This document shows positions 3,596-25,079 of a DNA stretch of 43,674 nucleotides, one piece after another; positions within the stretch are counted from its first letter, which is position 1, and each line of letters starts with the position of its first letter. The position numbers and the translations under genes were made by a program. The notes below the pieces were generated by a model that did not search any database, had not been told where the DNA came from, and saw nothing but the letters and a program-made list of their open reading frames with translations. The DNA is from Anaerolineaceae bacterium (GTDB lineage Bacteria; Chloroflexota; Anaerolineae; Anaerolineales; E44-bin32): the NCBI GenBank assembly GCA_020350285.1, contig CP070708.1:3197234-3240907 (forward strand), in the 5' to 3' direction.

Positions 3596-3600
3596 TTCAT

Positions 3601-4909: not shown

Positions 4910-4937
4910 CATGGAACGCAGAATTGTGGAGGGTACG

Positions 4938-5162: not shown

Positions 5163-5176
5163 TAGGGAGATCGCGG

Positions 5177-7081: not shown

Positions 7082-7091
7082 GAGATTCCAG

Positions 7092-7589: not shown

Positions 7590-7605
7590 TTTGATCACAG
7601 GATAA

Positions 7606-8457: not shown

Positions 8458-8620
8458 ATTCGCCGCAAGAACATAGACACACTATGCAATATTTCAATGT
8501 CTTAATGAATATCTTGAACTTTCGAAATGTAACGTTTTTATGGCACTAAGGAATAGCGCGTTACTAAGGACATACGAAGATTAGAGCAGATCATTTATCT
8601 TTTACATCAGGAGGAGCACC

Positions 8621-9838: not shown

Positions 9839-9911
9839 TTGCCAGACAGTATGCATTAACGAGTGTCGCGTCTCGAATGGCCGCGGTCTGAGAACAAAGC
9901 GAGGGTTGTGA

Positions 9912-11225
9912 GTGGAGAAAGTTGAGTTCGTTGTTGTTGGAGCAGGATTGTCTGGTTTGGCAACCGCATTGGTTCTCGCTGAGGCGGGTGCTGAGGTGCT
10001 GGTCGTCGAGCGGGGCGATTATCCGGGCAGTAAAAATGTCACCGGGGGTCGCCTCTACCTCGGTCCAGTTCGATCCTACCTCCCTGATCTATGGGAGGAG
10101 GCTCCACTGGAACGCCGCGTCGTAAAGGAACGGCTTACGATGATGGCTCCCGGATCCTCCATCACGGCAGAATTAAGCAGCGAGCGCTTCCGTAACCCTC
10201 CCTTTCCTAGCTACACCCTTCTCCATGCAACTTTTGACCGCTGGTTTGCAGACCAAGCATCCGCGCGAGGAGCAATGGTCATCTCAGGTTATAAAGTTGA
10301 CGATGTGCTTCAGAAAGATGGCAAAGTTATTGGCATTGTCTCGTCTGGCGACGAAATTCACGCTGATGCGGTTGTGGCTGCCGATGGTGCACTATCATTT
10401 ATGGCTGAAAAAACCGGTTTGCTCAAACCGCGAGCCGCAAAGAATTACGCCGTGGCGGCCAAAGAAATTATCGAGTTGCCCCCTCATGTCATCGAAGACC
10501 GCTTCGGAGTGGAAAATGACGAAGGGACCGCGCAGTTGTTCTTCGGGTCTCTGACAGCGGGCATTCATGGAGGCGGTTTTCTGTACACCAATCAGGCGAG
10601 CCTCTCCCTCGGATTGGTTCTTGCCATTCAGGATCTGATGGACAAATCCGGGCCGAATCTCTCCAATGAGGAATCTGCCTTCTCACCCCACAATCTACTT
10701 GAAGCTTTCAAGGATCGGTCTGAAATCCGACCCCTGATCGCTGATGGTCACTCTGTCGAGTATTCAGCCCACATCATCCCCGAAGGTGGCTTTCGAGCCC
10801 TGCCCAGATTGTTTACGGACGGGATGCTAATCGTCGGGGATGCTGCGGGTTTCACATTGAACTTGGGCGTGACCGTACGGGGCATGGATTTGGCGTTGGT
10901 TTCAGGCGTGTTGGCCGCTCGAGCCCTGCTTCGAGCTCGCGAGCGTGCTGATTTTTCGAGCGCTAGTCTTTCGTACTACGAAACCTTAATCAAAGAGAGT
11001 TTTATCTGGGAGGACCTCAAGACATTCCAGCATATGCCCGACTTTTTATCAAATCCCAGGATTTATGAGCGCTACCCATCCATGGCCTGCGATCTTCTGG
11101 AACAAATCCTGTGGGTCGGCGAGGGAACCAAAGAGAAACTCTCAACAACCATTCTGCGAACGGTCCGTCAGAATCTGTTCCGAATAAGTGTGTTGAGGGA
11201 CCTCTTCACGATGCGAAAAATCTAG
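9912..11225 (+). CDS. fixC: FixC-like ETF-quinone oxidoreductase flavoprotein
   Basis: The 437-aa protein starts with the FAD dinucleotide motif VVGAGLSGLATALVLAEAG, then ERGDYPGSKNVTGGRLY, and has the second FAD motif LIVGDAAGFTLN near residue 310. The family (FixC, ETF:quinone oxidoreductase) accepts electrons from EtfAB and reduces quinone; in FixABCX/EtfABCX complexes it is the high-potential branch of flavin-based bifurcation. The start is GTG at 9912, 73 bases after the dehydrogenase. Unlike mitochondrial ETF-QO it lacks a built-in Fe-S domain, which is supplied by the separate FixX gene that follows 10 bases later. The C-terminal LRTVRQNLFRISVLRDLFTM stretch is amphipathic and may contact the membrane. 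Confidence 0.92.
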   Translation: MEKVEFVVVGAGLSGLATALVLAEAGAEVLVVERGDYPGSKNVTGGRLYLGPVRSYLPDLWEEAPLERRVVKERLTMMAPGSSITAELSSERFRNPPFPSYTLLHATFDRWFADQASARGAMVISGYKVDDVLQKDGKVIGIVSSGDEIHADAVVAADGALSFMAEKTGLLKPRAAKNYAVAAKEIIELPPHVIEDRFGVENDEGTAQLFFGSLTAGIHGGGFLYTNQASLSLGLVLAIQDLMDKSGPNLSNEESAFSPHNLLEAFKDRSEIRPLIADGHSVEYSAHIIPEGGFRALPRLFTDGMLIVGDAAGFTLNLGVTVRGMDLALVSGVLAARALLRARERADFSSASLSYYETLIKESFIWEDLKTFQHMPDFLSNPRIYERYPSMACDLLEQILWVGEGTKEKLSTTILRTVRQNLFRISVLRDLFTMRKI

Positions 11226-11235
11226 CGAGTGTGCC

Positions 11236-11511
11236 ATGAACATTGAGGCCAAATTAGGTTTGGATGTTTTTAAGATCGACACAGAGCCGCATATTCTCAT
11301 CGATCATGAAATCTGCCAGGTAAAATGTGAGATTCGTTACTGCTTGAGTATCTGCCCCGCAGAGTTATACACATTGGATCCGCAGGATAAGGTCCAGGTT
11401 AATTTTGAGGGATGCCTAGAATGTGGCGCCTGTTTCATCGCCTGCCAACATGAAGCGTTGGCTTGGCATTATCCCAGGGCTGGATACGGAGTGCAATATC
11501 GATTTGGTTAG
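11236..11511 (+). CDS. fixX: FixX-like ferredoxin
   Basis: This 91-aa protein is of the FixX type. It has an irregular first cysteine group (CQVKCEIRYCLSICP) and the regular motif CLECGACFIACQHEAL, followed by the WHYPRAGYGVQYRFG tail characteristic of FixX. It is the Fe-S partner of FixC, replacing the fused ferredoxin domain of ETF-QO. Its end lies 52 bases before the EtfB start. Confidence 0.92.
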   Translation: MNIEAKLGLDVFKIDTEPHILIDHEICQVKCEIRYCLSICPAELYTLDPQDKVQVNFEGCLECGACFIACQHEALAWHYPRAGYGVQYRFG

Positions 11512-11563
11512 GAACTCGAAGGTTTGGTCAAAAGTCCACATCCCGATGAAAAGGGAAGAGGTT

Positions 11564-12373
11564 ATGAACATCATCGTTTGTATGAAACAAGTCATCGATC
11601 TGGAGCAGATACGCATCAAGCCCAATACCCGAGAACCGGTTACTAAAGGATTACCTCTCTTATTCGGCGACTTCGAGAAATGCGCATTGGAAGAAGCGGT
11701 TCGGATCCAGGAGAAGCATGGCGGTAAGGTTACGGCTTTGGCTGTAGGCTCCCCAAAGTTAAAAGACACGATAAAGGAAGCGTTGGCTATCGGTGCTGAT
11801 GAGGCCATCATCTTGACCGACCCAATGTTCAATGATTCTGACGCCATGGGCTCAGCACGTGTGATCGCAAAAGCCATTCATAAGATTGGAGAGTATGACC
11901 TGATCCTGTTGGGGGATAGCTCTGCGGACGAATACTCGGGCGAGATACCTCCCCGAATTGCTGAATTGTTGGATCTCCCTCAAGTCGGCTTCGCTAGGGA
12001 ACTTGAGATCCTGGAGGGCAACGATCAGGGAACGAACACAAAGACGATTCGTGCCGTGCGTGACTTGGAAGACGCTCTGGAAGTAGTGGAGCTGGATTTA
12101 CCTGCTGTTGTTGGAGTCACCAGTGAACTAAACACGCCTCGCTTAGCACCATTGTCCGCAATTCTGAAAGCTGGTCGGAAACCACTCAACGAATGGGGAC
12201 CAGAAGATATTGGCATCACAGCCGATGAGGTGGGCGCGAATGCATCGGTCGTTGAGGTACTAAGTAATTTGGCTCCGGTTCAGGATCGCAAGGAAATAAT
12301 CTACGAGGATGTGGAGGAAGGTGTTGCCGAAGTTGTCAAGGCTCTACTGCAGGAAGGAGTCTTGACACAATGA
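11564..12373 (+). CDS. etfB: Electron transfer flavoprotein beta subunit
   Basis: This 269-aa subunit begins MNIIVCMKQVIDLEQIRIKP, the standard EtfB N terminus. It has the ETF beta core (GDFEKCALEEAVRIQEKHGG; AIGADEAIIL; LILLGDSSADEYSGEIPPRIAE; VVGVTSELNTPRLAPL). The ATG at 11564 is chosen for the family N terminus and a GGGAAGAGG stretch just upstream; longer in-frame starts run into fixX. EtfB carries AMP or, in bifurcating types, an extra FAD and the NADH site. With FixC and FixX adjacent this is probably the bifurcating EtfABCX type, but I have not verified the diagnostic residues. It overlaps etfA by 4 bases. Confidence 0.94.
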   Translation: MNIIVCMKQVIDLEQIRIKPNTREPVTKGLPLLFGDFEKCALEEAVRIQEKHGGKVTALAVGSPKLKDTIKEALAIGADEAIILTDPMFNDSDAMGSARVIAKAIHKIGEYDLILLGDSSADEYSGEIPPRIAELLDLPQVGFARELEILEGNDQGTNTKTIRAVRDLEDALEVVELDLPAVVGVTSELNTPRLAPLSAILKAGRKPLNEWGPEDIGITADEVGANASVVEVLSNLAPVQDRKEIIYEDVEEGVAEVVKALLQEGVLTQ

Positions 12374-13332
12374 ACGGGATCGTCGTTTATTCAGAGTTGG
12401 AAGAAACAGCCCTGGGATTGTTAACCAAGGGTCGGGAGTTGGCATCCGAACTCAACAAACCATTATCAGTTGCATTGTTAGGTGAACAGGCTGGTGATCG
12501 AGCCGAGAACACCTTTGGATATGGAGCCACACAAGCTTTTATCGCAGACTCCCCCGCCCTGACTCCCTTTCAAGCCAGTACATACGCCGCAGCCCTGAAA
12601 CAGATCATGACTCACGCAGAAGCCGATATCATCCTGATCGGTTCCACTCGGCGCGGTCGAGAACTTGCCCCGCGTTTAGCCCAGAAACTTTCAGCAGGCT
12701 GCGTTACGGATGCGATCAGCCTCTCCGTTGAAGATAATCGACTTATCGTCGAACGCCGCGCGCTCGGAGGCAACACCGTATCCGCCAAAGTTATCACTAG
12801 CCAACAGCAGGTCGTTGCCGTCATGCCAAAACTTTATGATGCTGAGCCTATGACCGGCGGTGCTGGTGAGGTGATACCGGTATCGCTTGAATTGCAAGGA
12901 CCAACAACAAAGGTGCTTGAACGACGACCAAAAGAAGTAGGGATCGGCAACCTTGAAGAAGCCGATGTTTTAGTATGTATCGGACGGGGTTTGAACGACA
13001 AAGGTGATCTGTCATTGATTCAGCCCTTAGTCGATTCAGTTGGGGGTATGCTGGGCTGTACTCGACCGATCTCTCATGAGTACCACTGGCTTACGGAAGA
13101 CCAAATGGTAGGTCTTTCAGGCAAAGAATCCAGCCCAAATCTGTACCTCGCCATTGGTATATCGGGACAGATCCAACATACCGTGGGTGTCATGAATGCA
13201 AAAGTCATCGTCGCTATTAATAATGATAAAAACGCCCCGATCTTTAAGATCGCAGACTATGGTATCGTCGGTGATTTGTATCAGGTTGTGCCTAAGCTGA
13301 CCGAGAAACTCCAGAGTGAGTTCGGTCAGTGA
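12370..13332 (+). CDS. etfA: Electron transfer flavoprotein alpha subunit
   Basis: The 320-aa protein ends with the EtfA FAD domain: VCIGRGLNDKGDL, MLGCTRPISHEYHWL, QMVGLSGKESSPNLYLAIG, SGQIQHTVGV and VIVAINNDKNAPIFKIADYG. The gene starts in an ATGA overlap with etfB, so translation is coupled. It forms the EtfAB heterodimer that collects electrons from the acyl-CoA dehydrogenase upstream and delivers them to FixCX. Confidence 0.95.
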   Translation: MNGIVVYSELEETALGLLTKGRELASELNKPLSVALLGEQAGDRAENTFGYGATQAFIADSPALTPFQASTYAAALKQIMTHAEADIILIGSTRRGRELAPRLAQKLSAGCVTDAISLSVEDNRLIVERRALGGNTVSAKVITSQQQVVAVMPKLYDAEPMTGGAGEVIPVSLELQGPTTKVLERRPKEVGIGNLEEADVLVCIGRGLNDKGDLSLIQPLVDSVGGMLGCTRPISHEYHWLTEDQMVGLSGKESSPNLYLAIGISGQIQHTVGVMNAKVIVAINNDKNAPIFKIADYGIVGDLYQVVPKLTEKLQSEFGQ

Positions 13333-13383: not shown

Positions 13384-15345
13384 ATGGGACCAGAGGCTCA
13401 ATTTCCCTTTAACCAACCCATCGTCTGGGAACCCAGTGATGAGTATGTCCAACGCAGTCGCTTAAAGCGATTCATGGATCGGCATCATCTGAGCTCCTTT
13501 GATGAACTGATGCAGCGCTCAACCACCGACATCGCATGGTTCTGGGAGGCGGTCTTTGAAGACCTCGGCATCGAGTTCTATGAACCCTACACACAAGTTG
13601 TGGATCTCTCGGAAGGCATTCAATGGCCCAAATGGTGTGTCGGAGCCAAACTCAACATCGTCCACAACTGCCTCGACAAGTGGATGGGGACGCCGACGCA
13701 GGATCGCATCGCCATCCGCTGGGAGGGCGAAGAAGGAGTTGTACGCCAACTGACGTACCGTAATCTCAATAATCAAGTCAACCAAGTGGCATCTGCGTTA
13801 CGGTCGGTTGGGTTAGGTAAAGGTGATGCCATCGGTCTCTACATGCCGATGGTCCCTGAGATCGCGATCGCCCTACTAGCGATCGCCAAGATCGGCGGCA
13901 TCATCCTCCCACTTTTCTCCGGCTACGGCTCTGGCGCCATCGCGATGCGGCTTGCTGACGCGGATGCTAAAGCGATCTTTACTTCCAATGGGCAGTTGAG
14001 GAACGCAAAAACCATAGCGATGAAACCAGTTGTCGATGAAGCGTTGAATGAGGTCCCATCCATCGAGAAGGTGATCGTTTACCGACGTACTGATCTAGAG
14101 GTACCGATGACCCCTGACCGCGATGTTTGGTGGGATGATTTTGTGGATGGCCAGCCGACAGAAGCCCCCACCGAGCGGACCGATGCCGAAGACATAATCA
14201 TGATCATCTATACCAGCGGCACTACCGGTCAGCCTAAGGGGGCGGTTCATACCCACTGTAGTTTCCCCATCAAGGTCACTCATGACATGGCCCACTGCTT
14301 TGATGTTCAGCAGGATGACACCGTGTTCTGGATGACAGACATGGGTTGGATGATGGGACCTTGGGAGGTATTTGGTACAACGATCTTGGGCGCGAACATG
14401 CTCTTCTATGATGGCGCACCTACTTACCCTGATGTCGATCGAGTGTGGGCATTGGTTGAGAGGCACGGAGTAACCTGTTTGGGCATCGCGCCAACCTTCG
14501 TGCGTTCGATCATGCCGCATGGTAGCGAACCTATAGAACGCCATGATCTCAGTTCGCTGCGCGTCATCGGTTCCACAGGCGAGGCGTGGAATCCGGACCC
14601 ATGGTGCTGGCTCTTCGAGACCGTTGGTCGAAATGAAGTACCTATCCTGAACTACTCTGGTGGGACTGAAATCGCTGGTGGCATTGTATTAAGCAACACT
14701 TTACTCCCAATCAAACCGTGCTCGTTCTCCGCTCCGCCCCCAGGGATGGCTTCCGATGTCGCGGATGAGGAAGGCAATCCTGTACGGGGCGCGGTCGGGG
14801 AATTGGTCATACGTCAACCATGGATAGGTATGACGCGCGGATTCTGGAAAGACCCTGAACGATACCTGGAGACGTACTGGAGTCGAATTCCTGATGTGTG
14901 GATCCAAGGGGATTTCGCTGCGATTGATGAGGATGGGCATTGGTTCATCCTTGGTCGTTCAGACGATACGATCAAAATTGCAGGCAAGCGTGTGGGACCA
15001 GCGGAGGTAGAAAGTGTACTGGTGAGTCATCCAGCTGTGGCAGAGGCCGCCGCAATTGGTGTGCCGGATGAGATCAAAGGGGAAGCAGTAGTCGCATTCG
15101 CGGTACTGCAACCTAATGTGAACCCAGATGATGCTTTGCGTGCAGAACTCGAAGCCCTGATCGTCAGAGAGATGGGTAAACCCCTCGCGCCCAAGACCGT
15201 GCTATTTGTACCCGATATTCCCAAGACTCGGAATGCAAAAGTCATGCGGCGTGTCATACGAGCCACCTACTTGGGTGAACCTCCAGGTGATCTAAGTGCG
15301 TTGGTAAACCCAGAGATTGTCAATGAGATACGAGAGGCGATATGA
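13384..15345 (+). CDS. Acetyl/propionyl-CoA synthetase-like AMP-forming ligase
   Basis: The 653-aa protein has the length and domain plan of the AcsA family, including the N-terminal ACS extension. The phosphate-binding motif is IYTSGTTGQPKG, A5 is NYSGGTEIAGG, and the hinge is GRSDDTIKIAGKRVGPAEVE. The catalytic lysine is Lys619 in KTRNAKVMRR, where the usual glycine before lysine is alanine. It converts a short-chain acid plus ATP and CoA to acyl-CoA, AMP and PPi. The usual ACS acetate-pocket tryptophan region reads TDMGWMMGPWEVFG, so a short acyl chain is plausible, though substituted acids cannot be excluded. It stands between the ETF and Hdr genes, so it may activate the acid made by the tungsten enzyme or the incoming substrate. 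AAGGGGAA lies upstream of the ATG. Confidence 0.9.
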   Translation: MGPEAQFPFNQPIVWEPSDEYVQRSRLKRFMDRHHLSSFDELMQRSTTDIAWFWEAVFEDLGIEFYEPYTQVVDLSEGIQWPKWCVGAKLNIVHNCLDKWMGTPTQDRIAIRWEGEEGVVRQLTYRNLNNQVNQVASALRSVGLGKGDAIGLYMPMVPEIAIALLAIAKIGGIILPLFSGYGSGAIAMRLADADAKAIFTSNGQLRNAKTIAMKPVVDEALNEVPSIEKVIVYRRTDLEVPMTPDRDVWWDDFVDGQPTEAPTERTDAEDIIMIIYTSGTTGQPKGAVHTHCSFPIKVTHDMAHCFDVQQDDTVFWMTDMGWMMGPWEVFGTTILGANMLFYDGAPTYPDVDRVWALVERHGVTCLGIAPTFVRSIMPHGSEPIERHDLSSLRVIGSTGEAWNPDPWCWLFETVGRNEVPILNYSGGTEIAGGIVLSNTLLPIKPCSFSAPPPGMASDVADEEGNPVRGAVGELVIRQPWIGMTRGFWKDPERYLETYWSRIPDVWIQGDFAAIDEDGHWFILGRSDDTIKIAGKRVGPAEVESVLVSHPAVAEAAAIGVPDEIKGEAVVAFAVLQPNVNPDDALRAELEALIVREMGKPLAPKTVLFVPDIPKTRNAKVMRRVIRATYLGEPPGDLSALVNPEIVNEIREAI

Positions 15346-15361: not shown

Positions 15362-16684
15362 ATGAAACAATCTGTCCTCGTAATCGGCGCTGGTATTGCT
15401 GGTATCCAAGCCTCCATCGACCTGGCCCAGATGGGCTTACAGGTCTACTTGGTTGAGCGCTCACCTTCTATCGGTGGCCGCATGGCTCAACTGGACAAAA
15501 CTTTCCCAACCAACGACTGTGCAATCTGTATCCTAGCTCCCAAGATGATTGAGTGTGCCAATCATGAGAATGTCCATTTGTTGACCTATTCCGAGGTCGC
15601 TGCAATAGAAGGGCACGCGGGCAATTTTCGGGTGAACGTTCGCAAGAAACCCCGTTATGTCGATCCGGATCGGTGCACCGGCTGTGGCGAGTGTGTGGAG
15701 AAATGTCCCCGACGGGTGTCGGACGAGTTTAATTTAAACCTAAACCGGAGACGAGCGATCTATATCCCCTTCCCCCAAGCGGTGCCACGGGTGATGACAG
15801 TCGATGCCGAGCACTGCCTCTACCTGACGGATCTGGATAAAGATCGGTGCCGCCTTTGTGAGGAAGTCTGCCAGGCGGGAGCGATCAACTGGGAGCAGCA
15901 GGAGGAGATCGTTGAGTTGGATATCGGCGCCATCGTCATCGCCACCGGTTTTGACCCTTACGACGCCTCGGAGCTGGAGGAGTACGGATTCGGCAGGATC
16001 CAGAACGTAATTAACGGTCTGCAGTATGAGCGATTGGTCTCGGCTTCGGGTCCCACCGGCGGTGAGTTGTTACGCCCCTCAGATGGGGCACATCCACACA
16101 CGGTAGCCTTCATCCAGTGTGTTGGTTCACGGGACATGAATCACAACCCTTACTGCTCCAGTGTTTGTTGCATGTTCGCCACCAAAGAGGCCATCCTGGC
16201 CAATGAGCACGATCCTGAATTAAAGCCCTACATCTTCTATACCGATCTTCGGGCGGGTGGAAAGCGCTTCCAAGAGTACATCACACGAGCTGAAGATGAA
16301 TACCAGGTTACCTACATTCGGGGTCGTCCAGGGAATATCGGCGAGAATCCAGAGACCGGGAATCCCGTCGTGCGTTATGAGGACACGACCGCCCGCCAGG
16401 TACATGAGATGGAGGTGGATCTGGTAGTGCTGTGCCAAGCACTCGTTCCCCGCCACGGGCAACAAGAAATCGCCAAGGTGTTGGGCATCGTCCTGGATGA
16501 GTATGGATTCGTGCACACACCAGAAAGGTTGCTCTATCCAGTGGATACGAGTGTGCCGGGGATCTTCGCATGTGGCTACTGTCAGAGCCCTCAAGACATC
16601 CCGGATTCCGTGACCCAAGCCTCAGGTACAGCAGCGCGAGTAGCAGAGCTGCTGTGTAGAGAAGAGATGGAGCACAAGCTTTGA
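15362..16684 (+). CDS. HdrA-like FAD/Fe-S protein 1 (heterodisulfide reductase A-like)
   Basis: From ATG 15362 the protein is 440 aa and begins MKQSVLVIGAGIAG, the FAD-binding motif, followed by ERSPSIGGRMAQLDKTFP. The HdrA-specific cluster segment is C53, C56 and C65 (CAICILAPKMIEC). An inserted ferredoxin domain has C105/C108/C111/C115 and C163/C166/C170. The active flavin region includes GTDYSS-type residues replaced here by NPYCSSVCCMFATKEA. HdrA is the bifurcating flavin centre of Hdr complexes. This copy lacks the C-terminal ferredoxin domain, which is on the next gene. ATG 15323, within the 3' end of the synthetase, would give 453 aa and translational overlap; I prefer 15362 on family grounds, but neither has a clear ribosome-binding site. 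Its stop overlaps the next start by 4 bases. Confidence 0.88.
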   Translation: MKQSVLVIGAGIAGIQASIDLAQMGLQVYLVERSPSIGGRMAQLDKTFPTNDCAICILAPKMIECANHENVHLLTYSEVAAIEGHAGNFRVNVRKKPRYVDPDRCTGCGECVEKCPRRVSDEFNLNLNRRRAIYIPFPQAVPRVMTVDAEHCLYLTDLDKDRCRLCEEVCQAGAINWEQQEEIVELDIGAIVIATGFDPYDASELEEYGFGRIQNVINGLQYERLVSASGPTGGELLRPSDGAHPHTVAFIQCVGSRDMNHNPYCSSVCCMFATKEAILANEHDPELKPYIFYTDLRAGGKRFQEYITRAEDEYQVTYIRGRPGNIGENPETGNPVVRYEDTTARQVHEMEVDLVVLCQALVPRHGQQEIAKVLGIVLDEYGFVHTPERLLYPVDTSVPGIFACGYCQSPQDIPDSVTQASGTAARVAELLCREEMEHKL

Positions 16685-18204
16685 GTGAACCTCGGGTCGG
16701 CGTATTCGTTTGCCATTGTGGTACCAACATCGGCGGCGTTGTCGATGTGCCCGCTGTGGTGGAATACGCCCGTGCGCTCCCGTATGTAGCCCACGTTGAG
16801 GGTAACCTGTACAGCTGCTCTGTAGATGGATTGTCATCTCTCAAACAAGGTATTCACGAACACCGCCTCAATCGCGTCGTTGTCGCTTCCTGTACACCTA
16901 GGACACACGAACCGTTGTTCAAGGACGCCTGTGAGCAGGCCGGACTTAACCGCTACCTCTTTGAATTTGTAAATATTCGGGAGCATTGTTCTTGGGTCCA
17001 CAGTCATGAAGGCGATGTAGCGACAGTTAAGGCCATAAGACTCATCCGAATGGGGGTAGCTAAGGCCTGTCTGCTAGAGCCCCAAGACGAGGCAGAGAGT
17101 GGAGTGATTCCCGAGGCGCTTGTCATCGGCGGCGGTATCGCCGGAATGACAGCAGCGCTGAACCTGGCTCGGCAGGGATTCCATGTGCATCTGGTGGAGA
17201 AGGAAGCGCAACTCGGTGGACGGTTGTTACAAATCAATCGGCTGTGCCCCACCGATATAGAGGCATATGACCTCATCAAACCCATTATCCAAGAGGTTGA
17301 GGATCACGGACGAATAACTCTGCATGTTTCGTCCATGGTTCATGAGGTCAGCGGTTATGTAGGTAATTTCCAGATTACGGTTGCCGAAGATGGTGAGAAG
17401 CAGAGCTTCGACGTGGGAACAATTGTCGTCGCGACCGGTGCTGACGTTTTGCAGCCAGTCGGGTTGTACGGCTATGGGCAATTCCCTAATGTGCTCACCC
17501 AGTTGGAACTGGAGGATCGACTAAAAGCAGAACCGCCATTGATCACAGGGGCAGTTCTTATCAATTGCGTTGGCTCTCGCATTCCTGAACGGCCCTATTG
17601 TTCACGCGTTTGCTGCATGACCTCTCTGAAAAATGCAATCCAACTGAAGAAGTTGAATCCCGATGCCCAAGTCTACGTGCTACATCGGGACCTGTTAACT
17701 TACGGTGTTGAATTCGAGCGTTATTATCGGCGGGCCATGAAGGCTGGCGTTCGTTTCCTGCGCTACAACCTTGAGAATCCCCCCCAGATCGTCGGCCGTG
17801 GACGCGCAGAGAACGTCGTAGTTTGGGATGCACTGCGGGGTCGGGAACTTCACTTGCCCGTTGACCTAGTTGTTTTAAGCACCCCCCTAGTTCCCGCTTC
17901 AGACAATGAGAGGATCTCCCGCTTGTTAAAGGTTCCATTGGGAGAGTCGGGCTTCTTCCTCGAGGCGCACATTAAGCTGCGTCCAGTGGAGTTCGCCACC
18001 GATGGAATCTTTGTCTGTGGTACAACCCGTTGGTCAGCCGATGTATCCGAGAGTATCTCCCAGGCCTACGCAGCCTCCACCAAGGCAGCTATTCCGATGC
18101 GAATGGGCGTTGTCACCGCCGAGGCAATCACTGCTTACTCAGAGCCATCCTTTTGCACAGGTTGTGGCACTTGTGTTGTCACTTGCCCTTTCAACGCCAT
18201 ATAA
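16681..18204 (+). CDS. HdrA-like protein 2, ended by an in-frame TAA within the C-terminal ferredoxin domain
   Basis: The 507-aa protein starts with the HdrA N-terminal domain (RVGVFVCHCGTNIGG, VVVASCTPRTHEPLF, VKAIRLIRMGVAKACLLEP). It then has the FAD motif VIGGGIAGMTAALNLARQGF, and CSRVCCMTSLKNA with YVLHRDLLTYG around the flavin. It has no mid-protein ferredoxin insert. The C terminus reaches the first cluster motif C492/C495/C498/C502 (CTGCGTCVVTCP) and stops at TAA 18202-18204. The same frame continues for 55 codons with a perfect second cluster motif and the conserved HdrA tail. As written the protein would lack the cysteine pairing needed for either C-terminal cluster. It starts with TTG at 16681 in a 4-base overlap with HdrA 1. 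Confidence 0.85.
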   Translation: MSEPRVGVFVCHCGTNIGGVVDVPAVVEYARALPYVAHVEGNLYSCSVDGLSSLKQGIHEHRLNRVVVASCTPRTHEPLFKDACEQAGLNRYLFEFVNIREHCSWVHSHEGDVATVKAIRLIRMGVAKACLLEPQDEAESGVIPEALVIGGGIAGMTAALNLARQGFHVHLVEKEAQLGGRLLQINRLCPTDIEAYDLIKPIIQEVEDHGRITLHVSSMVHEVSGYVGNFQITVAEDGEKQSFDVGTIVVATGADVLQPVGLYGYGQFPNVLTQLELEDRLKAEPPLITGAVLINCVGSRIPERPYCSRVCCMTSLKNAIQLKKLNPDAQVYVLHRDLLTYGVEFERYYRRAMKAGVRFLRYNLENPPQIVGRGRAENVVVWDALRGRELHLPVDLVVLSTPLVPASDNERISRLLKVPLGESGFFLEAHIKLRPVEFATDGIFVCGTTRWSADVSESISQAYAASTKAAIPMRMGVVTAEAITAYSEPSFCTGCGTCVVTCPFNAI

Positions 18205-18372
18205 CTGCAAGTGCACGGAAATGGGCGTCAAGTGGCAACTGTTAATGTGGTCCAATGCAAAGGCTGTGGCAGCTGTGTAGCGGCCTGCCCAAGTAAGGCA
18301 ATGCAACAGCGAGGTTTCACCGATTGGCAGGTGCTCCGTATGATCGAGGCCTGTGGAAGTTGGATCGACTGA
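18205..18372 (+). pseudogene. Continuation of HdrA-like protein 2 after the in-frame stop
   Basis: This stretch is in the same frame as the preceding gene and encodes 55 residues: a spacer, then CKGCGSCVAACPSKAM (cysteines at virtual positions 526, 529, 532, 536) and GFTDWQVLRMIEAC, the usual end of HdrA. The next gene starts 2 bases after its TGA, exactly where an intact operon would place it. So the original gene spans 16681-18372 (563 codons before the stop), and TAA replaces a sense codon at position 508. No ribosome-binding site is seen for separate translation. Confidence 0.85.
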
Positions 18373-18373
18373 T

Positions 18374-18814
18374 ATGAGCGAGCACACTTTTCAACCCCGC
18401 ATCATTGCTTTCTGCTGCAATTGGTGTTCCTACGCGGGAGCCGACCTGGCCGGTGTCTCACGTTTACAAATGCCTGCGGACTTTAACATCATCCGTGTAA
18501 TGTGTTCGGCACGGGTGGCACCGGAGTGGATTATCAAGGCCCTCCTGAATGGGATTGACGGCGTGATGGTGTTGGGCTGCCACATTGGCGATTGTCACTA
18601 CATCAGCGGGAACCACCGAGCCGCAAAGCGGTTTGTATTGCTTAAGGAGATGCTCGCCTTCGTGGGCGTTCATCCCGACCGTCTACTTGTGGATTGGGTT
18701 TCAGCCTCGGAGGGAAGGAAGTTCCAAACGCTAGTGACGGAGTTTAGTAAGCGGGTGAAAGAGTTGGGACCATGCAGAGAATGGCAAGTTGAAATCCAAA
18801 CTCCTCAACGTTGA
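18374..18814 (+). CDS. MvhD/FlxD-like [2Fe-2S] electron-transfer subunit
   Basis: This 146-aa protein is of the MvhD family: FCCNWCSYAGADLAG at the N terminus (C14, C15, C18), RVMCSARV (C44), and VLGCHIGDCHYISGN (C69, C74). MvhD delivers electrons to HdrA from a hydrogenase, formate dehydrogenase or, in Flx systems, an NADH module. The ATG at 18374 overlaps neither neighbour and lies 2 bases after the end of the HdrA reading frame. No selenocysteine codon replaces the conserved cysteines, unlike BamF of some benzoyl-CoA reductases. The FlxC/B/A-like genes that follow suggest NAD(H) as its electron source. Confidence 0.9.
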   Translation: MSEHTFQPRIIAFCCNWCSYAGADLAGVSRLQMPADFNIIRVMCSARVAPEWIIKALLNGIDGVMVLGCHIGDCHYISGNHRAAKRFVLLKEMLAFVGVHPDRLLVDWVSASEGRKFQTLVTEFSKRVKELGPCREWQVEIQTPQR

Positions 18815-18881
18815 TGAATAACGGTAGGTGGCAAGTCTGCTCAGTAGATATAGTTTCACTCAACGGAAGTAATAGGAACAT

Positions 18882-19769
18882 ATGACAGAATTTACTCTAC
18901 AAGATCAAATCAGAGACCGAGCAAAACAATTACTTGCGAGCGAGCAGGTCAAGTGCGTTATCGGTTATGAGCATGGCTCGCGGGGACAGGTCCGTCCGGC
19001 ATTTATCCACCAGATCAACGATGTAGACAGCTTGGTTTGGAACCAGGGCTGCACCCACAACCTGGTTACATATCTGCGCGATATAAAGGGGACTTTTGGA
19101 AGCGACGAGCATCTACAGCGCGTGGCGATTATCGTTAAGCCGTGTGATAGCCGCGCGTTGAACGTGCTTCTGGCTGAGAAACAAATAGAACGTGAGCACA
19201 TCTATGTTATTGGAGTAGTGTGTACGGGGATTGTAGAGGGGGCCGGGTATGCCGGGCAAAGCAGCGATAAGCTGCAAACTCGCTGCGTACGCTGCAGCGA
19301 TCGTGTGCCTGTCATTTACGACTTGTTGGTTGGTGAACCCACCCATCCAGAAATTACAGATGATTATGTCGATCTCACCGAACTGGAAGCGATGCCCCCC
19401 GCTGAGCGTGCGGCCTTTTGGCTGAAACAATATGAGCGCTGTATTCTCTGCTATGCCTGTCGTCAGGTTTGCCCAGGGTGCTATTGCAGCACCTGTATGT
19501 TCGAACGGGACGATTCCTTGTGGGTTGGTATCGCTGCAGGTGTCAAGGAAAAAGAGGCCTTCCACTTGGGTCGAGCTTACCACTTGGCAGCCCGCTGTAT
19601 TGGCTGCGACGAGTGTGAACGTGTGTGTCCGATGGAACTTCCTCTGAGCTTACTTAACCACAAATTGGCCAAGGAGGTACAAAGGTTGTTCCATTACTGT
19701 GCTGGGGACGAACCATCCCAGTCGCCGCTGGCGACGATGTTGGCAGAAGGGGAGGAGTTTCCGGCATGA
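18882..19769 (+). CDS. Fe-S subunit with FrhB-like N-terminal domain (FlxC-like)
   Basis: In this 295-aa protein, the N-terminal part has VIGYEHGSRGQVRPAF, VKPCDSRALNVLL and YVIGVVCTGI, resembling the FrhB/FdhB domain that binds flavin or cluster. The C-terminal half has two [4Fe-4S] motifs: C187/C190/C193/C197 (CILCYACRQVCP) and C239/C242/C245/C249 (CIGCDECERVCP), plus extra cysteines in CPGCYCSTC and CVRC. It is encoded between the MvhD-like gene and two genes for NAD-linked Fe-S/flavin subunits, so I place it in a FlxABCD-type NADH dehydrogenase module; the exact subunit equivalence is from memory and uncertain. Its end overlaps the next start by 4 bases. Confidence 0.8.
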   Translation: MTEFTLQDQIRDRAKQLLASEQVKCVIGYEHGSRGQVRPAFIHQINDVDSLVWNQGCTHNLVTYLRDIKGTFGSDEHLQRVAIIVKPCDSRALNVLLAEKQIEREHIYVIGVVCTGIVEGAGYAGQSSDKLQTRCVRCSDRVPVIYDLLVGEPTHPEITDDYVDLTELEAMPPAERAAFWLKQYERCILCYACRQVCPGCYCSTCMFERDDSLWVGIAAGVKEKEAFHLGRAYHLAARCIGCDECERVCPMELPLSLLNHKLAKEVQRLFHYCAGDEPSQSPLATMLAEGEEFPA

Positions 19770-20812
19770 AGTATATCTCCAGAGAGGCTTTACAGACGTG
19801 GCTAGACCGACTGGCGAATGACGTCACATTGATTGCACCACGTCTTGTGGACGATATATTGCTCTATCAATCGGTATCATCCGCCCGCGAAATCGTTCTT
19901 GACTACACTCGCCCCAAGATGTCGGCGAAGGAGGTCGTCCTTCCATCGTCAGAACCCATCCTGTTCGTGGAGAAACGCGGCCAAGAAGTGAGTCTTACTG
20001 AACCATCCTCGGGAGCACAAATAATCTTTGGATTACGCCCATGCGATGCGCACGGCATCGCTGTGTTGGATACGGTGTTCGTAGGGCAGGAACCCATCGA
20101 TTTGAATTACGCGCGACGGCGTGAAGCGATAACATTGATTGGTCTGTCTTGTCCTCAAATGAGGGAGGATTGCTTCTGTACCAGCATGGGCGGAATGCCC
20201 AACGATCCCACCCATTTTGACGTGCTGCTTACAGAAGTGGAGGACGGTTACGCGGTCAACACCGTTACCGACAAAGGCAGAACACTCGTCGATCATTTGA
20301 ATTTAGAGGAGATAAAGGGTGAGCCAGCCGAACCAATCATAAATGAGACAGAATCGGTGCTGGCTCAGGAACACTGGCCTGACCTCTTTGCCGATCATTA
20401 TTGGGACCTTCTGGCTGAGCGCTGCCTTGAATGCCGTATGTGCGCTTACCTCTGTCCTGTCTGCCGTTGCTTTGATGTCCAGGATCAGGTGACCCAGCAA
20501 GGCATTAGTTATTCCAAGTACGACCGCTTACGCTGTTGGGACAGCTGTACGGGGACAAATTATCGGGTGGTGGCTGGTGGACACAATCCACGGGCGACCA
20601 AAGGCCAGCGCCTTCGAAACCGTTTCTTCTGCAAGTTCCATTATTTTCCTGTGGAATATGATCACAGCGGCTGTGTAGGTTGTGGACGCTGCATTGAGGC
20701 TTGTCCGGTCAACATAGATATCGTCGAGGTGATGCGTGATATATCGCGGGCTTTCAACGCATCACAGATTTCGAACGCCTCCCCCGATGCCGAAAAAGGG
20801 GTAACTGCATAA
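19766..20812 (+). CDS. 4Fe-4S dicluster subunit, sulfhydrogenase beta/anaerobic sulfite reductase A-like (FlxB-like)
   Basis: This 348-aa protein carries FGLRPCDAHGIAVLDTVF and REDCFCTSMGGMP, the signature of HydB/AsrA proteins. Two [4Fe-4S] motifs follow: C220/C223/C226/C230 (CLECRMCAYLCP) and C303/C306/C309/C313 (CVGCGRCIEACP). The family bridges an NAD(P)-binding flavoprotein and a downstream redox enzyme. Four-base overlap with the previous gene and a two-base gap to the next indicate a co-translated complex. In this setting it most likely connects the FlxA-like NAD site with the MvhD/HdrA chain. Confidence 0.87.
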   Translation: MKYISREALQTWLDRLANDVTLIAPRLVDDILLYQSVSSAREIVLDYTRPKMSAKEVVLPSSEPILFVEKRGQEVSLTEPSSGAQIIFGLRPCDAHGIAVLDTVFVGQEPIDLNYARRREAITLIGLSCPQMREDCFCTSMGGMPNDPTHFDVLLTEVEDGYAVNTVTDKGRTLVDHLNLEEIKGEPAEPIINETESVLAQEHWPDLFADHYWDLLAERCLECRMCAYLCPVCRCFDVQDQVTQQGISYSKYDRLRCWDSCTGTNYRVVAGGHNPRATKGQRLRNRFFCKFHYFPVEYDHSGCVGCGRCIEACPVNIDIVEVMRDISRAFNASQISNASPDAEKGVTA

Positions 20813-20814
20813 CT

Positions 20815-21678
20815 ATGAATGAACCAGGAAACCCCATCCAGGATCCTATGACCCCCTACCTAGGTCGGTTGGTCGGGAAAAAGGACCTGGGAACCGACAT
20901 CAAGTTACTTCAAGTCGAGCTGGTTGAACCAAATGGGAAAGCCCGATTTGCGGATTATCGACCTGGACAATTCGCTTTCGTATCGGCTTTGGGAATAGGT
21001 GAGGCTCCCTTTGGCATCGCCTCTACCCCTTCAGGAAACGGGTTGTTGGAATTTGGCATTGCGAAGGTGGGGAGTGTGACGGCGGCACTCCACTCGCTCG
21101 AAGTTGGCGAAATTGTAGGGGTACGCGGACCGCTGGGCAACGGGTTCCCAATGGATGAGATGAAGGACAAGAACATTTGCGTCTTGGGAGGCGGGATTGG
21201 AGGTGCACCCCTGCGTCCCGTTATTAGGGACATTCTCGATCAGCGAAGCGACTACGGTCACCTGACGATTTTGTGGGCAGCACGCAATCCTTCACTTTTG
21301 GTTTTTACCGATGAGTACGACCTGTGGCGTTCGGCACCTAACACTGAGCTTCATGTGACAGTGGACGAGGGAGATGAAGAATGGAAAGCCGCCGGTGGGA
21401 ACGAGGGACTGATTACACAATTACTGGAGACGATCGCCCCTTCGCCTGAAAATGCCGTGACTATCACATGCGGCCCACCAGCCATGCTTCATTTTGTAAC
21501 CCTTACACTCCATGAACTGGGCTTTAGCCTGGACCAGATGTGGACCACGTTGGAGGCGCGAATGCATTGCGGTATTTGCAAATGCGGCCGCTGTAACATG
21601 GGCGACAAATTCGTGTGTACTGATGGCCCGGTCTTTCGACAGGATGAGGTGGCCGGGTTCTTGGAGACGTACCTTTAG
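20815..21678 (+). CDS. FAD/NAD(P)-binding oxidoreductase, PyrK/HydG family (FlxA-like)
   Basis: The 287-aa protein has a ferredoxin-reductase fold. The FAD domain has RPGQFAFVSALGIGEAPFGIAS, the NAD(P) domain starts NICVLGGGIGGAPLRPV, and the nucleotide pocket includes TCGPPAMLHFV. The C terminus binds a [2Fe-2S] cluster: C252, C257, C260, C268, with one extra cysteine at 255. Homologues PyrK, HydG and FlxA exchange electrons between NAD(P)H and Fe-S partners. It is the likely NAD(H) entry or exit site of the Hdr-Flx complex encoded here. NADH versus NADPH preference is not visible. Confidence 0.9.
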   Translation: MNEPGNPIQDPMTPYLGRLVGKKDLGTDIKLLQVELVEPNGKARFADYRPGQFAFVSALGIGEAPFGIASTPSGNGLLEFGIAKVGSVTAALHSLEVGEIVGVRGPLGNGFPMDEMKDKNICVLGGGIGGAPLRPVIRDILDQRSDYGHLTILWAARNPSLLVFTDEYDLWRSAPNTELHVTVDEGDEEWKAAGGNEGLITQLLETIAPSPENAVTITCGPPAMLHFVTLTLHELGFSLDQMWTTLEARMHCGICKCGRCNMGDKFVCTDGPVFRQDEVAGFLETYL

Positions 21679-21696
21679 GAACCGTGCGGTGAACAG

Positions 21697-22197
21697 ATGT
21701 TAAACATAGAACAACTCGCTGACCAATACGGGCTCACCCTTTGCGTGGAATGTGGCAAATGCGTCGCGATTTGTCCAATAGGAGAGGTTTTTAACAATTT
21801 CTCGTACGAGGTCTCGCCTCGTGGAGTCATCGAAAGGATATTGATCGATCCTGAGATCCCACACGATGACAGCATGTGGTTCTGCTTGACCTGCGATTTG
21901 TGCACGGATTTATGTCCGGCGGGAGTACGCTTTCGTGATTTTGTCGAAGTGGCTCGCCAATGGGTGATAGAAACAGGGGTCACACAATTTGGTTCCTTTT
22001 GCGAGAGTTGTGGCGTGTACCTTTATCCTCAATATGTCCTGGAGTACGTGAAACAAACACTGGGCGAAAACACAGAAGAAATCCTGAATCTTTGCCCAAG
22101 GTGTCGGCGTTACGAAATTGGGGGAACGATAAAGACGTTGCTGCCTGGAAGGTTTAAGTTGAACTCTCCACGGTCACGAATGGGAGACAACCAATGA
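21697..22197 (+). CDS. HdrC-like two-[4Fe-4S] protein with an extra C-terminal CxxC pair
   Basis: The 166-aa protein has two cluster motifs of HdrC type, C16/C19/C22/C26 (CVECGKCVAICP) and C63/C66/C69/C73 (CLTCDLCTDLCP). Unlike plain HdrC it adds two CxxC knuckles, C102/C105 (FCESCG) and C133/C136 (LCPRCRR), likely a zinc site. HdrC normally links HdrA to HdrB, the CoM-S-S-CoB or disulfide-reducing subunit with CCG domains, but no HdrB gene is in this window. Here it may dock the complex onto a different acceptor. It overlaps the following gene by 4 bases. Confidence 0.85.
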   Translation: MLNIEQLADQYGLTLCVECGKCVAICPIGEVFNNFSYEVSPRGVIERILIDPEIPHDDSMWFCLTCDLCTDLCPAGVRFRDFVEVARQWVIETGVTQFGSFCESCGVYLYPQYVLEYVKQTLGENTEEILNLCPRCRRYEIGGTIKTLLPGRFKLNSPRSRMGDNQ

Positions 22198-22478
22198 AGG
22201 TCCATCTCAAGATCTTCCTCCCCGCCCTTCCTGAAGCGATAGGCGATAACGAATTGATAGTTGAATTTGATGGAACGACTGTCAGGGATCTGATCGAGAC
22301 TCTAGTTGATCGCTATGGGCAGAAAGCCAAGGAAGCGTTGTACGATGAAAAAGGTCAGTTCGATCCATTGGTCCAGGTGTTACTCAACGGAGAGGAGTGG
22401 CTGGCCCAGGATCAACTTGACACAGCTTTGAATGATGGCGACAGTATTATCTTCATGATGATGATGGCAGGAGGATAA
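22194..22478 (+). CDS. MoaD/ThiS family sulfur carrier
   Basis: This 94-aa ubiquitin-fold protein ends in AGG, the Gly-Gly tail that is adenylated and thiocarboxylated in MoaD and ThiS. It is longer than typical MoaD (about 80 aa) and has a MMMMAGG end with an unusual run of methionines. MoaD donates sulfur for the dithiolene of molybdopterin/tungstopterin. Translational coupling to the HdrC-like gene and presence in the same locus as a tungsten-pterin enzyme suggest a dedicated W-cofactor supply. It is the last gene before the terminator at 22617. Confidence 0.85.
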   Translation: MKVHLKIFLPALPEAIGDNELIVEFDGTTVRDLIETLVDRYGQKAKEALYDEKGQFDPLVQVLLNGEEWLAQDQLDTALNDGDSIIFMMMMAGG

Positions 22479-22616
22479 TCTAACACACACTATATCGCTT
22501 GGATGAACAGATCAAATAGAGTAGTAGGGGCGAGGTTCCCCCGCCCATTCACACGATTATAGAGATAGGTCAATTTCATCTATGAATTCATTTTCTGAAT
22601 AACAAGCAATAAATGT
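22479..22616. other. Gap between last operon gene and terminator, with a degenerate GTAGGGGC palindrome
   Basis: The gap contains GTAGGGGCGAGGTTCCCCCG (22525-22544), a decayed member of the GTAGGGGC palindrome family described elsewhere in this annotation. No gene was seen. Confidence 0.5.
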
Positions 22617-22648
22617 AAAACCCCGTTGGCATCCGTCAACGGGGTTTT
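22617..22648 (+). terminator. Strong intrinsic terminator of the redox locus
   Basis: A perfect 12-base-pair hairpin, AAAACCCCGTTG / CAACGGGGTTTT with an 8-base loop, has a T-run as its 3' arm. The A-run and T-run make it work in both directions, so it could also end the - strand gene at 22704-23126. Confidence 0.9.
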
Positions 22649-22703
22649 AAACTCAATCAAGTAATTGGATCTGAAACTTTGAGTAAGGCGATCCAAGATA
22701 ACA

Positions 22704-23293: not shown

Positions 23294-23399
23294 CACGCTC
23301 GATCATCGAAATCGATCACGTTGTGAAATATATTGCGAATAATGGGTTTTGTGTAGTCACATACCAAGATCGCGTCTCGAAATCAACTTGGAGGCTCAG

Positions 23400-25079
23400 A
23401 TGTTCGATCGGGAGAAGCTTGAAGGCTTACGGCAAGCAATGGAGGCATGGGAACAGGAAAAACTCAAGGAGACGATAGATCAGGTTCCAGAGCGTCGTGA
23501 AGAATTTATAACCACCTCTTCTGAGCCAATCAATCGTCTTTACACTCCATTAGACATCGAAGACATCGATTTCCAGCAAGATCTGGGCTTACCGGGTGAG
23601 TATCCATATACCCGTGGTGTGCACCCAACACTTTACCGTGGAAGACCTTGGACGATGCGGATGTTCGCCGGTTTCGGTTCTGCTAAGGAGACAAACAAAC
23701 GTTTCCGATACCTACTCGATCAGGGTCAAACTGGATTATCGACCGCATTCGATCTGCCCACTTTAATGGGCTATGACACCGATGCGCCAGAAGCTCTCGG
23801 TGAATTTGGAAAATGCGGCGTGGCGATCTCCTCGCTGCAGGATATGGAAATCCTTTTCAAAGATATACCACTCGATAAAGTCTCCACCAGCATGACGATC
23901 AATTCCCCGGCAGCTGTTATTTGGGCGATGTACATTGCTGCGGCTGAGAAACAAGGTGTGCGTCAAGAACAACTCCGGGGAACCATCCAGAACGACATTC
24001 TCAAAGAATACATCGCCCAAAAAGAGTACATTTTCCCGCCTAAGCCTTCCATGCGCTTGGTGATCGACACCATCGAATATGGCAGCAAGCAACTACCTTT
24101 GTGGAACACGATTTCAATTTCTGGATATCACATTCGAGAAGCGGGATCAACTGCCGCCCAGGAATTAGCATTTACCCTTTCGGATGGGATGGAATACGTA
24201 CGCTGGTCTCTCGATCGAGGCTTGGAGATTGACACCTTTGCCCCTCGATTATCCTTCTTCTTCAACGCACACAATGATTTCTTCGAGGAAATCGCTAAAT
24301 ACCGCGCCGCTCGTAGGATCTGGGCCGACGTTATGCGGAACACCTTCGGTGCTAGAAACGAACGGTCCTGGCTGATGCGCTTTCACACTCAGACCGCCGG
24401 TGTGAGCCTAACCGCTCAACAACCAGAGATCAACATCGTGCGCGTTGCTATTCAAGCATTGGCGGCCGTCTTAGGGGGTACCCAGTCGCTTCACACCAAT
24501 TCGATGGACGAAGCTTTAGCTCTACCATCCGCTCACGCCGCAACGATAGCGCTTCGAACCCAACAGATCCTGCTTGAGGAATCGGGCACAGCCAATACGA
24601 TCGACCCACTGGGAGGGTCATTCTTCGTCGAAGCCTTGACAGATCGCATGGAGCAACAAGCAAGAGAGTACTTCCGTCGGATCGATGAATTAGGGGGCGT
24701 GCTCCCTGCGCTGGAGGTAGGTTTCTTCCAGCGCGAGATCCATGAGGCGGCTTATCGCTATCAACGTGAAATTGACAACGGACAACGTAAGATCATCGGT
24801 GTCAACGCATACATCGATGATGTACCCTTGAAGATCTCTCTCTTGGAGATGGATCCGGAGGGGCATCGACGCCAAGTGGAACGCTTGGAGAAGCTTCGAC
24901 AAACTCGAGATAACGGTGCAGTCGGACAAGCGCTCGATCGCCTGCGCATAGCTTGCCAGGGGACCGAAAACACGATGCCACATATCCTCGAAGCCGTTCA
25001 TGCATACGCTACTTTGGGTGAGATCATTGATGTAATGAGGGAGGTTTTCGGGACTTACGAAGAACCCAGTTGGATGTGA
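23400..25079 (+). CDS. Coenzyme B12-dependent acyl-CoA mutase large subunit, isobutyryl-CoA mutase-like by active-site residues
   Basis: The 559-aa protein is the TIM-barrel catalytic part of the methylmalonyl-CoA mutase family, without the C-terminal B12-binding domain. Start ATG 23400 has GGAGG five to six bases upstream. Counting from it, catalytic His244, Tyr243, Gln197 and Arg283 fall at the same numbers as in Propionibacterium MutB. The two residues that hold the free carboxylate of methylmalonyl/succinyl-CoA in MutB, Tyr89 and Arg207, are Phe89 (RMFAGF) and Gln207 (IAQKEY). Phe/Gln at these sites is the reported signature of isobutyryl-CoA mutase (butyryl-CoA to isobutyryl-CoA). Ala116 does not match the Asp of 2-hydroxyisobutyryl-CoA mutase. 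The small B12-binding subunit and a MeaB-type chaperone are not in the window. Automatic annotation would call it methylmalonyl-CoA mutase. Confidence 0.85.

Follow-up and report, generated by a model that had tools for sequence, protein, structure and literature searches.

A gene cluster of Anaerolineae and Desulfobacterota combining a non-canonical tungsten enzyme with tandem HdrA proteins: a candidate electron-bifurcating complex

Tungsten oxidoreductases of the AOR/WOR family (WORs) have been split into five classes, of which the bifurcating class IV has a WorABC module and in many of its operons a WorX-type gene (PMC13328260; this and the sources below are cited from their available text). 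The available text of that source names a single WOR that contains HdrA, namely Bam, the class II benzoyl-CoA reductase, and elsewhere Bam is treated as Bfu plus HdrA (PMC9304861). In supercomplexes of the Fdh-Hdr-Fwd type, which have been purified, HdrA is linked with a tungsten or molybdenum formylmethanofuran dehydrogenase (PMC12054007), and HdrA and Fwd subunits share PDB entry 7bkb. Other Hdr sets have been described (PMC5736913, PMC10553843, PMC5109826). No paper was found that describes tandem HdrA and Flx together with an AOR/WOR enzyme other than Bam, supplementary files and most subscription papers lying outside this search. Here we analyse a locus in which a tungsten enzyme of this family shares a unit with two HdrA proteins, MvhD, FlxCBA and HdrC. 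It lies in a 43,674 nt stretch of Anaerolineaceae bacterium (GCA_020350285.1, CP070708.1, positions 3,197,234-3,240,907, forward strand), called the window throughout. Genomes compared with it carry G numbers, and the genome stretches (loci) fetched from them L numbers.

We propose, at a probability of about 0.6, that the tungsten enzyme, a polyferredoxin and the HdrA1-HdrA2-MvhD-FlxCBA-HdrC set would assemble into a single electron-bifurcating complex that uses NAD(P)H to power a low-potential reduction at its tungsten site. A preliminary description of the window had linked the Hdr-Flx genes to the tungsten enzyme, and the distribution of these genes supports the view that they belong together. 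We searched 298 genomes of the class for AOR (E 1e-80 or better): nine gave matches at 69-100% identity, and the next matches lay at 44% and below. All nine genomes of this close AOR clade also encode an HdrC with a four-Cys tail, which was found in 10 of the 298 (E 1e-25); the tenth, G347, has a completeness of 70%, and its contig breaks off within HdrA2. Fisher's test for the AOR/HdrC overlap gives p 2e-16, a value inflated by the relatedness of the genomes. HdrA1 at 69% identity or more was listed in eight of the 298 genomes, all among the nine with AOR; the ninth, G178, has only a 52-residue piece. Including this piece and the G107 gene, cut by a contig end, HdrA1 lies on the AOR contig and strand in 9/9.

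Moreover, G231, G065 and G158 carry an uninterrupted run of eleven genes in the order zinc ribbon-AOR-polyferredoxin-HdrA1-HdrA2-MvhD-FlxC-FlxB-FlxA-HdrC-MoaD, and consistent pieces of this operon occur on split contigs in G215, G178 and G107. No extra gene, for example HdrB, stands between AOR and MoaD in L100, L103 and L105. The polyferredoxin gene is directly followed by HdrA1 in seven genomes (G195, G072, G231, G215, G065, G158, G107).

Synteny extends to a second phylum. The HdrA1 search of named genomes returned 13 loci, all in metagenome-assembled genomes of Desulfobacterota/Deltaproteobacteria, and the gene order HdrA1-HdrA2-HdrC-zinc ribbon-AOR-polyferredoxin occurs among them. HdrA1 is followed by HdrA2 in 12 of the 13 and by HdrC in 11, and HdrC-zinc ribbon-AOR lies on the HdrA1 contig in six (AOR 62-67% identical to that of the window; two cut by contig ends). 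The AOR clade is present in all eight Desulfobacterota genomes searched, at 57-67% identity, with a partial sequence in G359, and the zinc-ribbon gene adjoins the AOR gene in the clade loci of both groups reaching that far. Orthologous IclR regulators stand beside 7/13 HdrA1 loci and also flank two AOR loci that have no Hdr genes within the part fetched. The HdrC clade was not detected at E 1e-18 in the other 300 genomes of a phylum sample, which partly overlaps the class sample.

The preliminary description had listed an HdrA-HdrA-MvhD-FlxCBA-HdrC set without HdrB, and profile matches confirmed all of its genes on the + strand at the place given. They are listed below with the other features of the unit and its surroundings.

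3704-4909, + strand: thiolase
4938-5162, + strand: small zinc-ribbon protein (C-x2-C...C-x2-C), likely start ATG 4938 within open reading frame 4830-5162; HypA match weak, below cut-off
5177-7081, + strand: tungsten AOR/WOR-family catalytic subunit (WorL-like), Thr313/Ser428 for PfAOR Glu313/Tyr427 (PF01314, PF02730; PDB alignments; tree)
7092-7589, + strand: polyferredoxin (WorS-like; Fer4 families) with 16 Cys, enough for four [4Fe-4S] clusters
7606-13332, + strand: catabolic block of UbiE-type methyltransferase, acyl-CoA dehydrogenase, FixC, FixX, EtfB and EtfA
9912-13332, + strand: FixC-FixX-EtfB-EtfA within this block, EtfB start likely 11564
13384-15345, + strand: acetyl-CoA synthetase-like AMP-forming acyl-CoA ligase (PF00501, PF13193, PF16177; below TIGR02188 cut-off)
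15362-16684, + strand: HdrA1 (NCBIfam HdrA2/HdrA models)
16681-18372, + strand: HdrA2, in-frame TAA at 18202-18204 (NCBIfam HdrA2/HdrA models)
18374-18814, + strand: MvhD/FlxD-type electron-transfer subunit (PF02662, E 6.5e-53)
18882-19769, + strand: FlxC-like (FrhB/FdhB-type) iron-sulfur subunit (PF04432, Fer4)
19766-20812, + strand: FlxB-like (AsrA/HydB-type) iron-sulfur subunit (PF17179; TIGR02910 and NF040829 below cut-off)
20815-21678, + strand: FlxA-like (AsrB/HydG-type) FAD/NAD(P)-binding subunit (PF00175, PF10418, PF00970; NF006220 and TIGR02911 below cut-off)
21697-22197, + strand: HdrC-like protein, two [4Fe-4S] motifs and a C-terminal four-Cys site (C102, C105, C133, C136)
22194-22478, + strand: MoaD/ThiS-type sulfur carrier ending in Gly-Gly (WorX-like; PF02597, TIGR01687 above cut-off)
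22616-22649, called on the - strand only: terminator-like inverted repeat 3' of MoaD, the last gene of the unit

The genes are closely spaced and overlap by 4 nt at HdrA1/HdrA2, FlxC/FlxB and HdrC/MoaD, and the unit as first delimited, ending at 22478, takes in the MoaD/ThiS-type gene. Proteins of the MoaD/ThiS type are the kind that serves the making of the tungsten/molybdenum cofactor. The terminator scan found one candidate against 1.0 expected in shuffles, so that the inverted repeat is weak evidence for the unit end. A methylmalonyl-CoA mutase gene (23349-25079) was set aside as a member of the unit, the repeat and 0.9 kb intervening. The HdrB-type CCG domain gave 17 matches genome-wide and none within the window; elsewhere the genome holds a canonical-looking HdrC-HdrB-HdrA-MvhD cluster followed by two genes that, judged by size, resemble MvhG and MvhA.

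HdrA1 and HdrA2 matched the NCBIfam HdrA models at E 1e-94 to 1e-163, all scores lying below the cut-offs set for full-length HdrA. HdrA1 comprises an FAD domain, an inserted ferredoxin domain and the Cys197-type motif (DCAIC), and lacks the N-terminal and C-terminal ferredoxin domains. HdrA2 comprises the N-terminal cluster domain, an FAD domain and a C-terminal ferredoxin domain (2 x CxxCxxCxxxC), and lacks the inserted ferredoxin domain and the Cys197 motif. The motif CxnCx3CC....K is kept in both, its Lys being placed, by the numbering that we presume, at Lys409 of bifurcating HdrA. The two proteins show the pattern of tandem HdrA, one partner having the N-domain without Cys197 and the other the reverse, and are predicted to be complementary halves of one heterodimer. 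The same complementarity occurs in tandem HdrA of ANME archaea, where heterodimers were inferred and electrons were routed from MvhD through the C-terminal ferredoxin domain to FAD, and from there to HdrC in one direction and to the inserted ferredoxin domain in the other (PMC9012536); archaeal HdrA, including type II HdrA, has also been classified (PMC12054007). Applied to the window, this route would place the low-potential exit on HdrA1, whose gene lies directly 3' of the polyferredoxin gene in the uninterrupted operons. A fusion of MvhD to HdrA2 was ruled out: the two are separate genes because the HdrA2 frame closes at 18372, before the MvhD ATG at 18374.

The preliminary description had also ascribed an extra zinc-type site to HdrC, and the added C-x2-C...C-x2-C is indeed present. 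Its four Cys residues are invariant in 36/36 rows of an alignment of the window protein with 35 sequences picked among 120 matches listed of 181.

The second-shell residues of AORs are Thr243, Glu313, Tyr427 and His448 in PfAOR numbering, while in BamB Cys322 is a tungsten ligand (PMC12096430). Aligned with PfAOR, the window enzyme shows T241, T313, S428 and H449; Thr and His are thus kept, Glu313 is replaced by Thr and Tyr427 by Ser. Across the window and the best 120 of 7867 matches, the first replacement recurs in 119/121 sequences (one Ala, one Ser) and the second in 120/121 (one gap). Among the AORs of the loci, counted without open reading frames below 540 aa and exact duplicates, the 19 at 50% identity or more, window included, carry identical six active-site letters. 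Glu occupies position 313 in none of the six at 40-50% identity and in 34 of the 38 below 40%, the four others being L107 (Thr, sister group), L123 (Thr, distant WOR), L130 (Trp) and L133 (BamB-type). In the tree, rooted on BamB by choice, the window clade is monophyletic (23 members, support 0.999) and nested in a wider Thr/Ser/Ala group (30 members, support 1.0). Judged from these alignments, the tungsten enzyme is not a canonical AOR, Glu313 and Tyr427 being replaced by Thr and Ser across its clade, and the conserved changes point to an undescribed tungsten reaction.

One sister WOR, in G195, shares a contig with the Hdr genes of that genome at a distance of ~29 kb. This second WOR cluster (L095:12768-19562, L096) contains an AOR at 43% identity with Thr at 313, a ligase, PanE, a BadF-type gene, an NAD(P)H-oxidoreductase-like protein, a thiolase and a 591-aa protein with a C-terminal ThiS domain.

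The electron-donor module varies while the remainder of the operon is retained. In G195 a selenocysteine formate dehydrogenase (TIGR01591 score 876.5, cut-off 666.25) stands in place of FlxB and FlxA, and G347 has a homologue 77% identical to it at the same place. G072 has only a FlxC-like gene at the Flx position. In the Desulfobacterota locus L057 a GltD-like NAD(P)H domain is inserted into HdrA1, and four more loci contain open reading frames of similar size (judged by size). The window Flx proteins are 53-60% identical to those of the HdrA cluster L031 from the same genus and 36-48% identical to those of G231, G065 and G158, so that the Flx module seems to have been swapped. L031 itself (1072-7601) is another HdrA-HdrA-MvhD-FlxCBA cluster with one HdrA interrupted by TGA, and its Flx proteins are the closest to those of the window outside G002 among the loci examined. 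A modular HdrA-tungsten complex with exchangeable donors appears well supported by genomics.

Related partnerships occur beyond this clade. G051 (L038:8245-18068) has the order AOR-polyferredoxin-HdrA-HdrC-MvhD-FlxC-FlxB-FlxA-polyferredoxin, its HdrA carrying an in-frame TGA/Sec and an MvhD domain, and G319 (L174:5348-15188) shows the same order at 70-90% identity. The G051 AOR is 31% identical to that of the window and keeps the aldehyde-type Glu313 and Tyr427. This independent operon means that HdrA and Flx joined WOR genes in at least two lineages. Furthermore, related HdrA1/HdrA2 pairs adjoin 2-oxoacid:ferredoxin oxidoreductase genes in G108 and G341 (L149:3141-12973, L150:6312-15062), so that several low-potential enzymes seem to serve as partners of the HdrA pair.

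In the window, the block of catabolic genes that separates polyferredoxin from HdrA1 looks like an insertion, because G231, G065 and G158 run from polyferredoxin straight into HdrA1. Among the loci examined it is common only to the window and same-genus G002, and it is absent from L100, L103 and L105. The preliminary description had placed a complete FixCX-EtfBA set in the unit; these genes are present on the + strand but are not conserved with the operon outside the genus, none being found in the fetched stretches around the operon of G231, G065 and G158. FixCX-EtfBA was rejected as a fixed part of the system. G195 has EtfBA upstream with a different partner, a 698-aa CCG/Fer4 protein. Further genes were seen near the clade AOR. 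The window encodes a BadF/BcrA-type acyl-CoA dehydratase activase (2089-2874, above the TIGR00241 cut-off) with no dehydratase gene beside it, and G178 has an HGD-D gene at the corresponding upstream place (L099:472-1776). In Desulfobacterota an EutA-like gene (B12-enzyme reactivase type) lies 3' of AOR-polyferredoxin in L054 (16592-19611), L049, L051, L157 and L164, adjoined in L054 and L049 by a radical SAM-like gene whose match is below cut-off.

Direct observation covers which genes are present, how they co-occur, their synteny in two phyla, the domain layout and the residues of the active site; from these we infer a physical complex, its cofactors, its direction and its substrate. NAD(P)H would deliver electrons through FlxA, FlxB/FlxC and MvhD to the C-terminal ferredoxin domain of HdrA2 and on to the bifurcating FAD. 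The low-potential electron would pass over a cluster shared by HdrA2 and HdrA1 (Cys197) to the inserted ferredoxin domain of HdrA1, and by the polyferredoxin to the tungsten site, the tungsten enzyme thus occupying the docking place of free ferredoxin in ordinary HdrABC. The high-potential electron would leave by HdrC to an acceptor, possibly menaquinone or ETF, and the four-Cys tail of HdrC would stand where HdrB is missing. In relatives the input module is a different one: formate dehydrogenase (two genomes) or, in at least one Desulfobacterota locus, the NAD(P)H-type GltD domain carried by HdrA1. We favour one complex because AOR and HdrC overlap in 9/9 genomes, operons are uninterrupted, synteny and IclR regulators are shared in Desulfobacterota, MoaD overlaps the HdrC end, the HdrA halves complement each other and the donor is swapped while the core stays. 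The independent G051/G319 operon and the HdrA pairs beside 2-oxoacid:ferredoxin oxidoreductase argue in the same direction, and the Fdh-Hdr-Fwd supercomplexes offer an earlier example of HdrA in association with a tungsten or molybdenum enzyme. More tentatively, and as a proposal that we consider possible rather than probable, the locus may represent a third kind of AOR/WOR tungsten oxidoreductase. This would be an ATP-free low-potential pump with an HdrA heterodimer, the tungsten subunit replacing free ferredoxin, no HdrB and a plug-in donor (NADH with FlxCBA, formate with formate dehydrogenase, or NAD(P)H with a GltD insert). The Thr313/Ser428 active site suggests that its reduction would be neither of the aldehyde/acid nor of the benzoyl-CoA kind.

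Several observations weigh against one complex acting in this way. In the window the AOR and Hdr genes are 8.3 kb apart. Routine placement in separate operons, named in the preliminary description as grounds for abandoning the link, is not what is found in Anaerolineae, but HdrA and AOR lie on different contigs in three of the eight Desulfobacterota genomes (G356, G357, G360). FlxCBA is not universal, two genomes having formate dehydrogenase and G072 the lone FlxC-like gene, and a Flx gene is present in only 3/13 Desulfobacterota loci, the other ten having none on the contig, where many contigs are short. A fold search with the AlphaFold model of HdrC (pLDDT 71) was uninformative and found no structural match, the best hit having E 0.66. 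The occurrence of Thr at 313 in the distant WOR L123 implies that this residue alone is no marker, and the stretches fetched for sister WOR groups with Thr/Ser/Ala at this position contain no Hdr genes. Finally, the in-frame TAA falls inside the C-terminal ferredoxin domain of HdrA2; the frame continues past it to 18372 and encodes the second half of the domain, and none of 10 aligned relatives has a stop at this position. If this stop is real, the locus would be decaying in this strain and the complex would not be made here, which we regard as unlikely: the unit's remaining genes show no interruption along their whole length, an assembly error is just as plausible, and G002, one of these relatives and 66-96% identical gene by gene, lacks the stop.

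The separate contigs and the 8.3 kb gap would also fit two independent systems in one regulon, an NADH-linked Hdr-type complex and a ferredoxin-dependent AOR connected by soluble ferredoxin only, and a shared IclR-type regulator would suffice for their co-occurrence. This is quite improbable given that polyferredoxin runs directly into HdrA1 in seven genomes, that the Hdr genes lie directly 5' of zinc ribbon-AOR in Desulfobacterota and that the HdrC variant accompanies the AOR clade in 9/9. A less remote alternative, though one we still consider doubtful, is that the same complex works in reverse, the tungsten enzyme oxidising its substrate and HdrA passing electrons to NAD+ (or CO2, giving formate) and a second carrier. 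Class IV WORs couple aldehyde oxidation to ferredoxin and NAD+ (PMC13328260), HdrA reactions are thought to be reversible, as bifurcation or confurcation (PMC12054007), the CoA ligases and thiolases upstream fit catabolism, and the AOR of the independent operon has aldehyde-type residues in G051. On the other hand, the proposed catalytic base Glu313 is Thr in the window clade, and aldehyde oxidation, already near -500 mV, should need no HdrA bifurcation for NAD+ reduction.

The likeness to class II benzoyl-CoA reductase drawn in the preliminary description holds for the working principle and for the HdrA- and MvhD-type subunits, but not for the BamB Cys ligand, the Zn motif and the BamGHI-type module. 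A variant of this enzyme reducing an aromatic or alicyclic acyl-CoA would agree with that principle (AOR-type subunit, polyferredoxin, HdrA, MvhD, NADH module) and with the BadF/BcrA-type activase and acyl-CoA genes upstream, yet it is very improbable. At the BamB Cys322 position the BamB-type L133 matches PDB 4z3w with MKCF, whereas the window and 18 other clade rows have Thr. The Zn/proton site of BamB (Glu251, His255, Glu257, His260) lies in EMKVHDEKWH, common to 4z3w and L133, and residues 234-262 of the window AOR contain no His or Glu. In place of BamGHI (BfuABC/NuoEFG-like) the unit has FlxCBA and no NuoE/F/G-type Pfam match, and its AOR is far from BamB in the tree. Membership in class II benzoyl-CoA reductase was rejected on Cys ligand, Zn motif, subunits and tree position.

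Compared with described systems, the locus shares with FlxABCD-HdrABC of Desulfovibrio homologues of FlxA, FlxB, FlxC, FlxD/MvhD, HdrA and HdrC, and differs in having no HdrB, two HdrA halves, the four-Cys site added to HdrC and a tungsten enzyme with MoaD in the unit. The complementary N-domain/Cys197 halves recall the tandem HdrA of ANME archaea (HdrA5/6, 12/13) and type II HdrA; the ANME pairs occur with HdrBC/HdrD or FdhAB-like genes, the window pair with a tungsten AOR and no HdrB. Class IV bifurcating WOR (WorLSABC; Acetomicrobium, Eubacterium) has WorL and WorS homologues and an NAD-linked module in common with the window, but its active site differs, and HdrA with Flx or formate dehydrogenase would replace WorABC as bifurcation module, no WorABC-type Pfam match occurring in the unit. 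The legend to the hdr loci of Desulfobacterium autotrophicum HRM2 (2009) names Aor5, ferredoxin and an Fe/S protein (PMC2702500); compared by description only, these loci may be of the kind studied here, recorded earlier, and the available text of that paper does not interpret them as a complex. The Fdh-Hdr-Fwd/Fmd and Mvh-Hdr-Fwd supercomplexes of methanogens likewise combine HdrA, an exchangeable donor (formate or H2) and a tungsten or molybdenum enzyme reached by iron-sulfur subunits, but there the enzyme is formylmethanofuran dehydrogenase, of another family, HdrB is present and HdrA is one gene.

As far as found, HdrA has been described as the electron source of one AOR/WOR-family enzyme only, Bam, Hdr-Fwd feeding another family of tungsten enzymes; with a further modular case, present in two phyla, the use of HdrA to drive tungsten chemistry would become a general strategy. 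Like the window, class II benzoyl-CoA reductase of Geobacter metallireducens (BamBCDEFGHI) joins an AOR-family tungsten subunit and a polyferredoxin to HdrA-type and NADH-linked modules. It differs in the tungsten ligand Cys322 and Zn site of BamB, the BfuABC-like BamGHI and the HdrABC-like BamD/E, where the window has Thr313, no Zn motif, FlxCBA (formate dehydrogenase in relatives), tandem HdrA and HdrC without HdrB. Having no BamGHI, a system of the window type would be the simpler one for testing how HdrA bifurcation yields electrons below ferredoxin.

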